Source: Hydrogenobacter sp. (GTDB lineage: Bacteria; Aquificota; Aquificia; Aquificales; Aquificaceae). Taken from it: a DNA stretch of 60,719 nucleotides. The DNA is taken from positions 1 through 60,719 of the forward strand of contig JBEULM010000019.1 of the NCBI GenBank assembly GCA_041287335.1. Reading direction: 5' to 3'. Positions 3,505-38,109 of the stretch are shown here, piece after piece (position 1 is the first letter of the stretch; each line of letters starts with the position of its first letter). Made by a program: the position numbers and the translations under genes. The notes under the pieces are model-generated. The model did not search any database. It worked only from the letters and a program-made list of their open reading frames with translations, and was not told where the DNA came from.

Positions 3505-5150
3505 GCATAGTTCTCGGAACAAAACCTATATCTCCCCTTGAGTTCTGGATAGGTATAGAGGAAGAACACCTCCTTCAGCTTGATGATGTGGTGTATGTGG
3601 AGACAGCATTAAAAGACACTAAGGTTTTCTTTTATGGAATAGTTCAGGACGTGCAGAAATTCCTTGAGGGTGCAGAGTCAGTTTACGATGCCCATCTTGT
3701 CACGCGCGGTATCATACCCGTAAATATAGCTTATACGGCTAAGGTGAACGTTACCAGAGTAGAACCGGAAATCTTCGTTCCGCCAAGTCCCGGAGATCCC
3801 GTTTTTAAAGCTACTGGCAAACATTTTGAGAAGGCGCTCTATTACGATCACATGAAAGTTAAAATACCGGCTGGTCTTACAAGAAGTGGAGATCCGATTT
3901 ATTTGAATTATCACTTTCTTAACGGTAAAGAGGGCGCTCACGTGAGTATATCTGGTATGTCAGGTGTAGCTACAAAAACATCTTACGCGCTTTTTCTTTT
4001 GTATTCGTTGCTGAGCAAAGCTGACGATGTAAAGCAGGGTGTTCACGGTGTTATATTCAACGTAAAGGGAAAAGATCTCTTGTGGATAGATAAAAAAAAT
4101 AAGGTCTTTTCGGATGAGGACAGAAAAGCTTTTGAAAGACTTGGGCTAAAACCTGAACCTTTTAAAAAGGTGATCTTTTACGTTCCACCAGAAGAGAGTG
4201 ACCCTCACATTCCCGAATGTGAAAGACTTGATGATAAAGTAGTATCTTTCTACTGGAGCGTAAGGGAGTTCGCACAGGAGGGGCTTATAAAGTTTATGTT
4301 TGTTGAAGGCGAAGAAGGTATGTCCAACATAAACTACGCAATAGATAAGGTGGCAAACAAACTCTACGAACTTGCAAAGCGCAGTCCAGAAGGAAGACTT
4401 ATAGATGATTACGGTAGGGATATAGAGAGTTTGCAAGACCTGGAAAAAATCCTTGAGGAAGCTATTCAGGACAAAGAGCAGAACAAAAGTTCTGAGCTGT
4501 ACAAAGGTTGGTTTGGTGATGCACAACTCCAAACAGCTTATGCTTTCATGAGAAGGTTTCATAGGGCTAGTGAAAAAATAAGGAGGCTTATAAGGGAAAA
4601 CGTGTCTTCATCAGTAAAATGGAAGGAGCAAAAACTCTCCGTAATAGACATAAGCGGACTTCACAGTATAGCCAAAATGTTTGTAGTAGGTGCCATTCTT
4701 AAAAAGATCTTTAAAGAAAAGGAAGAAAGCTCTAACCCTTATCCGAAACTTTTTGTAGTGCTTGATGAGCTTAACAAGTATGCACCAAAAGAAGGTTGGA
4801 GTCCTATAAAAGACATAGTCCTTGACATAGCTGAAAGAGGGAGAAGCCTTGGGGTGATCCTGATAGGCGCTCAGCAAACGGCAAGCGAGATAGAAAAAAG
4901 GGTACTTGCCAACTCTGCTGTAAAGATAGTGGGTAGGATGGATAGCAGCGAGGTATTAAGTAAGGAGTACGAATTTCTGATAGGGAACTTCAGACAAAGA
5001 GCCATAATGCTTAAAAAAGGCACTATGATAATGTATCAGCCGGATGTTCCTACACCACTTATATTTAGGTTCCCAAGACCTCCATGGGCTACAAAAAAGG
5101 AGGAAGTAGAGGAGGAGGTGCATGTACCGGAAGATTTTAATAATTTTTAG
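3492..5150 (+). CDS. HerA/DUF87-like ATPase with altered P-loop
   Basis: 552 residues. The N-terminal ~110 residues look like a HerA beta-barrel (HAS-barrel), followed by a RecA/FtsK-type ATPase core. The Walker A position reads [10 protein letters not shown], one residue longer than the usual GxxxxGK[ST] and lacking its second glycine. The Walker B region is [15 protein letters not shown], and a later stretch [19 protein letters not shown] matches HerA-type motifs. HerA proteins are hexameric DNA translocases, often working with NurA nuclease, but no nurA is adjacent. The gene overlaps hemC by 13 bases and the amidase gene by 29, so it is probably cotranscribed with both. Family membership is good; enzymatic activity and role are uncertain. 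Confidence 0.7.
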
Positions 5151-28320: not shown

Positions 28321-29530
28321 TTGTTCCACCAAAGCCGAAGGAGTTGGATAAGGCAACATTGATTTCTTTACGAACCGCTTTGTTTGGTGTATAGTCAAGG
28401 TCGCATTCGGGATCTGGCTTTTCAAGATTTATGGTAGGTGGGATCACTCCTGTCTGTATGGTCTTCACTGTTGCCACAGCTTCAACAGCACCCGCCGCAC
28501 CCAGAAGGTGTCCTATCATAGATTTGTTGGAACTTATTTTGAGTTTATAAGCATGCTCACCAAACAGATTTTTTATGGCTAAGGTCTCGGCTCTATCGTT
28601 GAGAGGTGTGGATGTACCGTGAGCGTTTATGTAATCTACCTCATCAGGTTTTATTTTAGCATCTTCAAGAGCCAATTTCATACACATATACGCTCCTTCC
28701 CCATCCGCACACGGAGCGGTTATGTGATAGGCGTCATCCGTTGCTGAATATCCTACGATCTCAGCATAAATTTTTGCTCCTCTTGCCTTGGCATACTCAT
28801 ACTCTTCTAATACAAGCACACCCGCACCTTCCCCCATCACAAAACCGTCCCTTTCCATATCAAAGGGTCTTGATGCCTTTTGTGGCTCATGATTCCTGGT
28901 TGAAAGAGCTTTCATAGAGGCAAAACCCGCTATACCCAGCGGTGTGATGGCGCTTTCACACCCTCCCGCAATGGCTATATCTATATCTCCTTTTTGGATC
29001 AGTCTCATGGCATCTCCTATGGAGTGATTACCCGTAGCACAAGCAGACACGACACAGTAATTGGGACCTTTAAAACCGTACCTTATAGCAACAAGTCCCG
29101 CTGCCATATTGGATATACCGTAAGGTATAAAAAAGGGAGAAACTCTTCTGGGACCTTTTTCGGCAAGGATCTTCTGTTGTTCCTCTATGTCCCTTAGACC
29201 TCCTATGCCTGTGCCGATTATGACTCCCACCCTATAGGGATCAAACTTGCTTTCTCTAAGACCACTGTCTTTTATAGCTTCCTCAGAAGCTGCTACTGCA
29301 TACTTTATAAAGTCAGATACCCTCTGTAGGTCTTTTTTATCAAAATAATCTTCTGGATTAAAGTCTTTTACTTCAGCAGCTATATGAACAGAAAGCCCCA
29401 GCTCTATGGGATCAAACCTCTTTATGATGTCAACACCGCTCACACCTTCTGTTAGATTTTTCCAAAATTTTTCAACACCTGTACCTATAGGTGAAACCAC
29501 ACCCAATCCTGTTACCACAACTCTGCGCAT
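28292..29530 (-). CDS. fabF: 3-oxoacyl-ACP synthase II
   Basis: 412 residues. Condensing enzyme of fatty-acid elongation. Catalytic triad visible: Cys in [18 protein letters not shown], His in [12 protein letters not shown] and His in [19 protein letters not shown]. Ends [15 protein letters not shown] as usual. Its start overlaps the acpP stop by one base, giving the acpP-fabF-rnc operon common in bacteria. Confidence 0.97.
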
Positions 29531-29769
29531 CAGTCCTTCTTTACTTTCTCCTTAAGGTAGTTAAGCACATCCCCTACAGTTCTTATCTTTTCCGCATCTT
29601 CGTCAGGTATTTCAATACCGAACTCTTCTTCAAAAGCCATTATAAGCTCAACTACGTCAAGAGAATCAGCTCCGAGATCTTCAACAAACTTAGCTTCAGG
29701 ATTAAGTTTTTCCACCTCTACACCGAGCTGATCGGCTATAATCTCCTTAACCTTCTGTTCCAGATCCAT
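29530..29769 (-). CDS. acpP: Acyl carrier protein
   Basis: 79 residues, acidic. Phosphopantetheine attachment serine in [20 protein letters not shown]. Carries acyl intermediates in fatty-acid synthesis and octanoyl for lipoyl synthesis. The ribosome site is weak (GGGATTGAG) and is immediately preceded by a terminator-like hairpin and a complex leader, suggesting regulation at RNA level. Confidence 0.97.
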
Positions 29770-29922
29770 TACTCAATCCCGAAAAACCAGACCTGCTACT
29801 CAGTCTGGTACTGGGGTATTTGTATCCCGCCTTTTAAAGCACACCCTACCCCAGCAGGCGGTTTTAGGTGTGCCTTTACTTTAAAATAATCACTTACTAC
29901 TGAAGGGCTTTTTTTCATTCCC
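29770..29922 (-). promoter_or_regulatory. Structured acpP leader with three crossing helices (candidate riboswitch or autoregulatory RNA)
   Basis: The predicted transcript leader of about 153 bases holds three long complementary pairs: A, GCACACC (29873-29867) with GGTGTGC (29845-29839), extendable by 3 bp past a bulge; B, CCGCCT (29861-29856) with AGGCGG (29832-29827); C, CTGGGGTA (29854-29847) with TACCCCAG (29818-29811). The 5' arms come in the order A, B, C and the 3' arms in the same order, so every pair crosses every other. A terminator-like hairpin follows. I do not recognise the structure as a known RNA class. What is seen is the pairing; function is inferred. Confidence 0.6.
29782..29809 (-). 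terminator. Terminator-like hairpin just before acpP
   Basis: On the minus strand ACCAGAC (29809-29803), a 10-base loop and GTCTGGT (29792-29786) form a 7 bp stem followed by a T run (29786-29782). It lies only 12 bases before the acpP start codon, so it could act as an attenuator or as a block to translation rather than as an operon end. Stability is modest. Confidence 0.55.
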
Positions 29923-29928
29923 TGAAAC

Positions 29929-29957
29929 ATTATACAACTTTTTCAGGCATTTTTCAA
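29929..29957 (-). promoter_or_regulatory. Promoter of the acpP-fabF-rnc operon
   Basis: Minus strand TTGAAA (29957-29952), 17-base spacer, TATAAT (29934-29929), near-consensus. The -35 box overlaps the end of the upstream gene. Predicted start is near 29922. Confidence 0.85.
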
Positions 29958-31096
29958 GAAAGCTCCTTAGGTAGTGGTGGCAAGCTTCTTAGCTTCCTTT
30001 TTATTATATCCTGTGAGTATTTCTCCAGATAATGAACAATGGTCTCAACTCTTATTTTTATACTTCCTGCAGGTTTTGTTTCATCAAGTTCTCCGAACTT
30101 AAAAAAGAGCGTTCCCCTACTTTCAACTATCTTTTGCACAGGTGTATATGTTGGTTGATCCATGCCACACTCATAAGAAGAAAGCCTTATGACCCCAGTT
30201 ATCCATGGGAATCTGCTCGCAAACTTGGAAGCCCATATTATCTCGTTGGTATTTGAGCTGTAGGAGGATGTCCAAACATCGGAGATATCGAAAGGGCTTT
30301 TTATGATTCCTGCTTTTATATCATGACCAAAAAGCCAATCCAAAAGCCAGTCATTTATAGGAAGATAATTGTACCACAAAACTGGATATCCGTAAGTTTG
30401 AAACTCCCCATCTATCTCGTGTCCTATACCTGTATCCATATGATAAGGTCTCGCAAGCACCAAAATAGCTGGTCTATTTTCTTTAACGCACCACTTTACA
30501 ATGTCTAAGCTCTTACTCCTCATGTAAGCGTCAAAATCCTCTAAAGCCTTTAGCCCGTTTATCACAGCATCCCGTACCTCTTGGTAAGACACATCAATAA
30601 CTTGTTTTAAGGATTCGTAAAGTTGCTTAGGGAGCAGTTCCGGTTCACCAAAGGTCACAAAAGGTGAGATATACTTAACACCCCTCTCTTTAAATTCATC
30701 CCTTTCCCTCAAAAAGCCCGCCTTTATATTCTCGGGAGCCATCATAACTCTCGTACAGCTAAGAGTGTCAAGTACATGACCTCTCAAAAAGGAAGGTAAA
30801 GAGTATATCATCGGGGTAAAGATTATATCCACGTTTTTTGCAAGCAGTTCGCCTATATGCCCAGCAAGGGCTTTTACCGGAAAGCAGGAATCCATAGTTA
30901 TCCTTCCCTTTCCAAAGGTGCGGTACTGTTCTTCGGATGTGTCCGAGCTGAAAACTACCCTTAGCCCAAGGGAGCTAAAGAAACCAATCCAAAATTGATG
31001 CGTACCCCACACGTTCAAAAACTTTGGGATACCCACCTTAATGCCGGTTCTATCCTTGCCAAGCGATCTGATTTTTCTTTTGAGTATTTTCAGCAT
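29954..31096 (-). CDS. 2-hydroxyacyl-CoA dehydratase/activase-related protein (DUF2229-like part)
   Basis: 380 residues. Starts VGIPKFLNVWGTHQFWIGFF, as in the DUF2229 region of the very large BadF-type activase proteins. Cysteines in MDSCFPVKALAGH, LSCTRVMM and SSYECGMDQPTY are placed like those that bind iron-sulfur clusters in the HgdB/HgdC family. Family members couple ATP hydrolysis to low-potential electron transfer for radical dehydration or reductive reactions. Here it is a separate gene, 3 kb from two other parts of the same system (34249-37915). Substrate unknown. Confidence 0.75.
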   Translation of the reverse strand: MLKILKRKIRSLGKDRTGIKVGIPKFLNVWGTHQFWIGFFSSLGLRVVFSSDTSEEQYRTFGKGRITMDSCFPVKALAGHIGELLAKNVDIIFTPMIYSLPSFLRGHVLDTLSCTRVMMAPENIKAGFLRERDEFKERGVKYISPFVTFGEPELLPKQLYESLKQVIDVSYQEVRDAVINGLKALEDFDAYMRSKSLDIVKWCVKENRPAILVLARPYHMDTGIGHEIDGEFQTYGYPVLWYNYLPINDWLLDWLFGHDIKAGIIKSPFDISDVWTSSYSSNTNEIIWASKFASRFPWITGVIRLSSYECGMDQPTYTPVQKIVESRGTLFFKFGELDETKPAGSIKIRVETIVHYLEKYSQDIIKRKLRSLPPLPKELS

Positions 31097-38009: not shown

Positions 38010-38109
38010 TGGCGGGAGAGCAAGGGAATCGAACCCTCCGGAGATCGCCTCCAGCGACCTCCCACGGGATTTGAAGTCCCGGGGCGGCACCAGCCAGCCA
38101 CACTCTCCC
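38010..38109 (-). tRNA. selC: tRNA-Sec (TCA), selenocysteine
   Basis: 100 bases including an encoded CCA (38012-38010). Acceptor stem of 8 bp (GGGAGAG plus U-G), anticodon loop CTTCAAA giving anticodon TCA, very long variable arm (GGAGGTCGC paired with GCGATCTCC), T loop TTCGATT. These are the hallmarks of bacterial tRNA-Sec, which decodes UGA with SelB. The first base is the third base of the TAG stop of the upstream gene, and no promoter separates them, so it is likely cut out of the formate dehydrogenase operon transcript. Confidence 0.96.

Follow-up and report, generated by a model that had tools for sequence, protein, structure and literature searches.

The window analysed here spans 60,719 nt, and the locus under study lies on its minus strand, where an open reading frame of 79 aa with a Pfam PP-binding match encodes acyl carrier protein (acpP, 29530–29769). 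A consensus scan places a promoter upstream of this gene at 29929–29957 with 11 of 12 matching bases, consisting of a −35 box TTGAAA (29957–29952), a 17-nt spacer and a −10 box TATAAT (29934–29929), in agreement with an earlier note on this DNA that had described a near-consensus promoter. The gene upstream of the acpP leader (29954–31096, minus strand) encodes a protein with a CoA enzyme activase domain, DUF2229, and its TGA stop codon overlaps the −35 box (TCTTGAAA). The window also contains a selenocysteine tRNA gene at 38014–38109 on the minus strand (Rfam tRNA-Sec, 74.7 bits).

On the minus strand the leader reads ...AAAGGCACACC-TAAAA-CCGCCT-G-CTGGGGTA-G-GGTGTGCTTT-AAA-AGGCGG-GATACAAA-TACCCCAG-T-ACCAGAC...GTCTGGT-TTTTCGGGATTGAGTA-ATG and includes three perfect stems. 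Helix A pairs GCACACC (29873–29867) with GGTGTGC (29845–29839) through 7 Watson-Crick pairs, with a possible outward extension by G-U and A-U pairs; helix B pairs CCGCCT (29861–29856) with AGGCGG (29832–29827) over 6 bp; and helix C pairs CTGGGGTA (29854–29847) with TACCCCAG (29818–29811) over 8 bp. The arms follow one another in the order A-B-C-A'-B'-C', each helix crossing both others, so the three mutually crossing helices reported in the earlier note are indeed present. Hardly any bases separate the 5' arm of B from the 5' arm of C, or the latter from the 3' arm of A, so that the three helices could stack into one rod. The strand joining B' to C' (GATACAAA, 29819–29826) has the consensus GATANAAATA and is near-invariant in the copies read. 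Helix C is followed by a hairpin, P4 (29786–29809, ACCAGAC...GTCTGGT), and by a 16-nt spacer to the ATG (29770–29785) with a weak ribosome site, CGGGA; in the full-length elements described below, its place is taken by the CCAGG right end and the spacer after it. Dinucleotide shuffling of the 66-nt acpP segment gave no case in 3000 of three crossing stems with 6, 6 and 7 bp or more, as expected from the earlier claim that chance rarely produces such pairings; when the 111-nt leader was shuffled, 2 of 1000 sequences had them. A covariance-model search of the leader against Rfam found no family that reaches its gathering score and no meaningful hit at E-values up to 10, which disposes of known Rfam classes, including RAGATH-18, as an identification and agrees with the first impression that the leader is unlike known RNA classes.

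Five genomes of the genus were searched, the window's own among them, and each has the leader before acpP; the same type of promoter lies upstream of it in the four sister genomes. A diverged acpP leader is found in another genus (L024), where helix A has changed from GGCACACC to GGGTGTCC together with its partner arm, B from CCGCC to GCGCC and C from CTGGGG to CCGGGT, the partners again changing in step; a check on related genomes thus finds the pairings conserved with compensatory changes. In the other genera examined acpP mostly lacks the leader, and in many of these genomes it follows an AGGAGGT-like ribosome site or lies in a fab operon. Compared with AGGAGGT, the GGGA found here is as poor a ribosome site as had been noted. 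The hairpin before the ATG had been read as attenuator-like. The hairpin itself is real and its stem covaries (see below), but the T run that follows it is not preserved when the leader is compared between sister genomes (GGTTATTATTGGG, GGTTATTGGG). A transcription attenuator or terminator needs a hairpin and a conserved U run; the second of these is missing here, and the attenuator reading is rejected.

A covariance model was built from six acpP leaders and limited to helix C and P4 because MAFFT misplaced the A' arm of L024. At E ≤ 1 this home-made model, whose E-values are rough, has hits in 93 of 136 Aquificota genomes, and most of these hits are far stronger than that limit; there are 10 copies in the window's own genome, and 31, 20 and 18 in G050, G101 and G018, respectively. 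The matches listed from a pattern scan of GTDB genomes include Thermoanaerobacter, Caldanaerobacter, Fervidicola, Thermovorax, Carboxydothermus, Caldicoprobacter, Thermodesulfobacteriaceae, Caldisericum and others, with a few rows (e.g., L111, L146, L156, L193) that resemble chance matches in coding sequence; judged by name, the hosts among the matches listed are mostly thermophiles. One viral contig of 172 kb (L224) is among the pattern-scan matches, with an RNA of the full-length type at 3861–3964 on the plus strand. Three AT-rich sequences (L140, L153 and L211, from an uncultured bacterium and Deltaproteobacteria MAG RSWP7) contain the B and C strands with a much longer spacer between C and B', and may belong to the family as divergent members.

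Helix A reaches at least 6 bp in 173 of 178 distinct copies, which come from Aquificota, thermophilic Clostridia and other thermophiles, compared to 11.6% when arms are swapped between copies, and helix C reaches at least 6 bp in 173 of the 178, compared to 47% with swapped arms; the copies are related, so these counts overstate the number of independent events. A best-stem search picked both helices, and the same search was applied to the swapped arms. The two arms of A covary throughout this set: there are 139 distinct arm combinations, and each position has every type of Watson-Crick pair. When fixed columns are compared instead, the outer B pair changes from C-G to G-C in 12 of 138 copies, and helix C has compensatory changes at several positions, many at two of them and few elsewhere. 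The cleanest test comes from the htpX locus, where 9 pairs have changed on both sides among the orthologs of 11 genomes (6 in A and 3 in the P4 stem), a number reached in none of 500 shuffles; helices B and C are invariant within this locus, so covariation there does not speak to selection on them. The core RNA is able to form a pseudotrefoil (A-B-C-A'-B'-C') followed by hairpin P4. Almost every copy is able to form A, B and C, and each of the three is under constraint, which favours the pseudoknot proposed in the earlier note over chance pairings; a possible alternative is that the pairings represent mutually exclusive states rather than a pseudoknot.

The copies occur at a characteristic distance from start codons. 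In sets of 108 and 61 copies, which represent two rough classes, an ATG open reading frame of at least 60 codons begins 6–22 nt past P4 in 84 and 49 copies, respectively, compared to 5.6% of control positions, and the distance from P4 to the ATG has a sharp peak at 13–17 nt. The genes found after the RNA include rplQ, rplY, rpmF, rpsR, hfq, rho, ndk, ftsH, htpX, hsp20, tatA and glyA as well as transaldolase, lexA and a CoA-binding (succinyl-CoA-synthetase-like) protein; the products include L25, L32, L17 and S18, and htpX, hsp20 and others were assigned by their start peptide. No pathway is common to these genes. A role specific to acpP or to fatty acids, which the earlier note had suggested, does not survive the finding of the same RNA before dozens of unrelated genes, and we reject an acpP-specific sensor on account of this number of targets. 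Solo leaders are found at the same gene in distant genera or families for rho (L038, L047, L200) and for ftsH (L046, L321), which would make them either very old leaders or products of repeated insertion at the same ribosome site.

Many copies of the RNA form the 3' end of a longer repeat encoding a protein of ~480–580 aa that scores above cut-off with the NCBIfam TnpB models TIGR01765 and TIGR01766 and has the invariant D, E and D of the RuvC site. The best PDB matches of its predicted fold are to Cas12f, with Fanzor2, ISFba1 TnpB and ISDra2 TnpB also listed, a match that is supportive only, given a mean pLDDT of 68; a Pfam search of the protein gave no TnpB match, and a sequence search of the PDB found no relevant entry. 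In 19 TnpB loci the RNA is encoded at the 3' end of tnpB, and in the Aquificota copies it overlaps the open reading frame; many genomes hold TnpB genes. Full-length elements directly follow a host GGAGG Shine-Dalgarno sequence and consist, in order, of a left end with a promoter, tnpB, the RNA and CCAGG. The left ends, found by sequence inside the element without any requirement on the flank, are preceded by GGAGG in every distinct insertion except one (GGTGG). At the right end the sequence is ACCAGG, and the start codon usually comes 6–8 nt later; beyond the constant CCAGG of full-length copies the host DNA is variable and constitutes a potential guide. Orthologous empty sites have the form GGGAGG-spacer-ATG. 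In Thermoanaerobacter relatives the empty site GAAGGGAGG-TAGTATTT-ATG corresponds to the filled site AACCAGG-TAGTATTT-ATG, and in Hydrogenobacter relatives AAGGAGG-TTAAAGC-ATG corresponds to AACCAGG-TTTGCT-ATG. It follows from the comparison of empty and filled sites that insertion occurs at the Shine-Dalgarno sequence and that the right end restores AGG in register. The assignment of the full-length copies as TnpB right-end RNAs (reRNA or omegaRNA) is well supported at the level of sequence, with binding by TnpB and guided cleavage as putative functions.

The 178 copies differ in two features of the guide pseudoknot, namely an end of the CCAGG type and, upstream of A, a hairpin whose loop reads C[C/T]TGG: 54 copies have both, 25 have one and 99 lack both. 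The acpP leader belongs to the class with neither, and has no adjoining tnpB, no guide-adjacent right-end strand and no first stem-loop. It is probably derived from functional reRNAs and is not a member of them, and its role as a guide RNA appears to have been lost. Core-only copies keep the core with compensatory changes and keep the same distance to the start codon. A −10 box ends 0–12 nt before helix A in 28 of 93 core-only copies, compared to 6.6% in the control, and about one third of core-only messages are therefore predicted to begin with the knot; the acpP promoter is located further upstream than these. Upstream of core-only copies there is no enrichment of a leftover GGAGG (11 of 93, compared to 11.5% in the control), a result that weighs against the reading proposed below. 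Intact copies are found in G018 (18 copies), G057 and G062, and are likewise kept in G037, G042, G043, G046 and G033, all without a match to TIGR01766, though a very divergent TnpB could escape detection. Some copies in the window's own genome have a recognizable structure. Before the L17 gene (L082, G000:C3:21386-21479), AGGAGG stands ~30 nt before the core, an arrangement such as a deletion fusing the left flank of a transposon to its right end would produce. Copies L084, L086 and L087 have truncated TnpB sequence fused directly to the RNA (read for L084 and L086) and are internally deleted, MITE-like derivatives.

We propose, with a probability of about 0.6, that the leader of acpP descends from the right-end RNA of thermophile TnpB transposons, of which it keeps only the core, and that it has been exapted as a 5' leader acting in cis. 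The identity of the element as the core of the right-end RNA of a TnpB transposon, which the earlier note missed, is well supported, as is the transposon origin of the leader; the function in cis is suggested by conservation and position. Insertion would displace the ribosome-binding site of the host gene while the right end restores AGG in register, and the restored AGG would allow the element to be tolerated before well-expressed housekeeping genes that the host needs. The transposon would later decay, leaving the core as the 5' end of the mRNA, where it may be retained because it is useful for expression in cis and the displaced start codon stays translatable. The core probably shields the 5' end from decay, making the message stable, and keeps the start region single-stranded. 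The broader proposition that this TnpB family homes to Shine-Dalgarno sequences and half-rebuilds the ribosome site, and that its core has been repeatedly exapted as a leader of housekeeping genes in thermophiles and constitutes a new class of cis-acting RNA, seems to us to stand slightly above even odds.

The relationship could also run in the opposite direction, with the core being an old cellular leader RNA that TnpB transposons captured as a guide scaffold. Such a history would agree with the recurrence of solo leaders at rho and ftsH in distant genera (htpX recurs within one genus) and with their occurrence without TnpB. We nevertheless regard it as doubtful because the leaders stand as far from the start codon as insertion at a Shine-Dalgarno sequence would place them, tnpB remnants are still present on some solo copies of the window's own genome, and the right end is the usual place of TnpB RNAs. 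The direction from transposon to leader is favoured on the basis of spacing and parts, not of a tree. It is quite improbable that the solo RNAs are still selfish guides, maintained by homing as TnpB supplied in trans cuts alleles without the element: the core is common with that of TnpB right-end RNAs, the start-codon distance is equal and TnpB genes are present in many genomes, but 99 distinct copies lack both guide-pseudoknot partners that known reRNAs need (PMC10711439), and genomes in which TIGR01766 has no match still hold intact copies.

Two further explanations assign the leaders a sensory role. The solo leader could be a riboswitch or thermosensor, a cis regulator sensing a ligand or temperature in which the pseudotrefoil exposes or occludes the ribosome site in front of housekeeping and stress genes. 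Several targets are heat-stress genes (hsp20, htpX, ftsH), the RNA directly precedes the ribosome site, B and C are invariant and the joining strand GATANAAATA is near-invariant, which would all be expected of a sensor; the last of these is, however, also accounted for by origin as a TnpB-binding scaffold. The absence of a pathway shared by the downstream genes, the lack of any conserved alternative pairing with the ribosome site among those seen and, for a riboswitch, the lack of a conserved terminator make this explanation unlikely. The model of the earlier note, an attenuator or fatty-acid sensor specific to acpP, draws on acpP having a structured leader, preceded by a promoter of its own, in five of five genomes of the genus, and is scarcely tenable given the occurrence of the same RNA at dozens of unrelated genes, the predominant absence of the leader from acpP in other genera examined and the unconserved T run.

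If exaptation of the transposon RNA core is correct, the fields of TnpB/Cas12 guide RNAs and of 5' leader RNAs become joined, a guide-RNA scaffold has been retained without its nuclease, and thermophile mRNAs gain a structured 5' end that is open to direct testing. It would also suggest a reason for AGGAG-type TnpB motifs, namely landing at the ribosome-binding sites of indispensable genes. The scale amounts to hundreds of guide-scaffold copies across heat-loving bacteria, many of the stripped-down ones being predicted starts of ordinary mRNAs, and the rare ABCABC fold is now deeply sampled.

We found no paper in the open-access literature on the present RNA, on solo leaders or on TnpB at Shine-Dalgarno sequences, which is weak evidence; the main text of a published survey of Aquificales noncoding RNAs contains neither acpP nor UTR (PMC4227106). 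The ABCABC pseudotrefoil was represented by 51 sequences in a survey with 1688 simple ABAB pseudoknots (PMC3390330); it has the same helix order as the RNA described here and denotes a topology class, not a family. Among the closest known systems are IS607 TnpBs with a RAGATH-18-derived reRNA such as ISFba1, which require AGGAG or GAGGG beside the target (PMC11061315), a motif that fits the GGAGG found here. Both systems have a RuvC TnpB, an reRNA at the right end, a Shine-Dalgarno-like TAM and a pseudoknotted scaffold (PMC11061315). Unlike ISFba1, the present RNA has no match among Rfam models; it overlaps the open reading frame in Aquificota, whereas the ISFba1 reRNA lies wholly outside it, and it has the A-B-C core in place of a scaffold of three stem-loops and two pseudoknots (PMC11061315). 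Neither Shine-Dalgarno sequences, the ribosome, start codons nor leaders are mentioned in that paper (PMC11061315). Recombination of IS607 elements at GG dinucleotides (PMC10711439) fits the GGAGG and CCAGG ends of the present elements. In the reRNAs of both ISDra2 (PMC10097598) and IS607 (PMC10711439) the guide-adjacent bases pair with the loop of the first stem-loop, and the co-occurrence of CCAGG and the C[C/T]TGG loop in the 54 full-length copies resembles ISDra2 in this respect (PMC10097598). The full-length RNA also resembles the ISDra2 omegaRNA in overlapping the tnpB 3' end and the right end, but stems 2 and 3 of ISDra2 are nested hairpins where three crossing helices are found here, and its TAM is TTGAT rather than GGAGG (PMC10097598). 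IStrons, which combine a group I intron with an IS element (PMC4227781), offer a functional parallel in that an element's own RNA may make its insertion tolerable to the host gene; IStrons splice out of the transcript (PMC4227781), whereas the present elements stay in the message and seem to rebuild the ribosome site.
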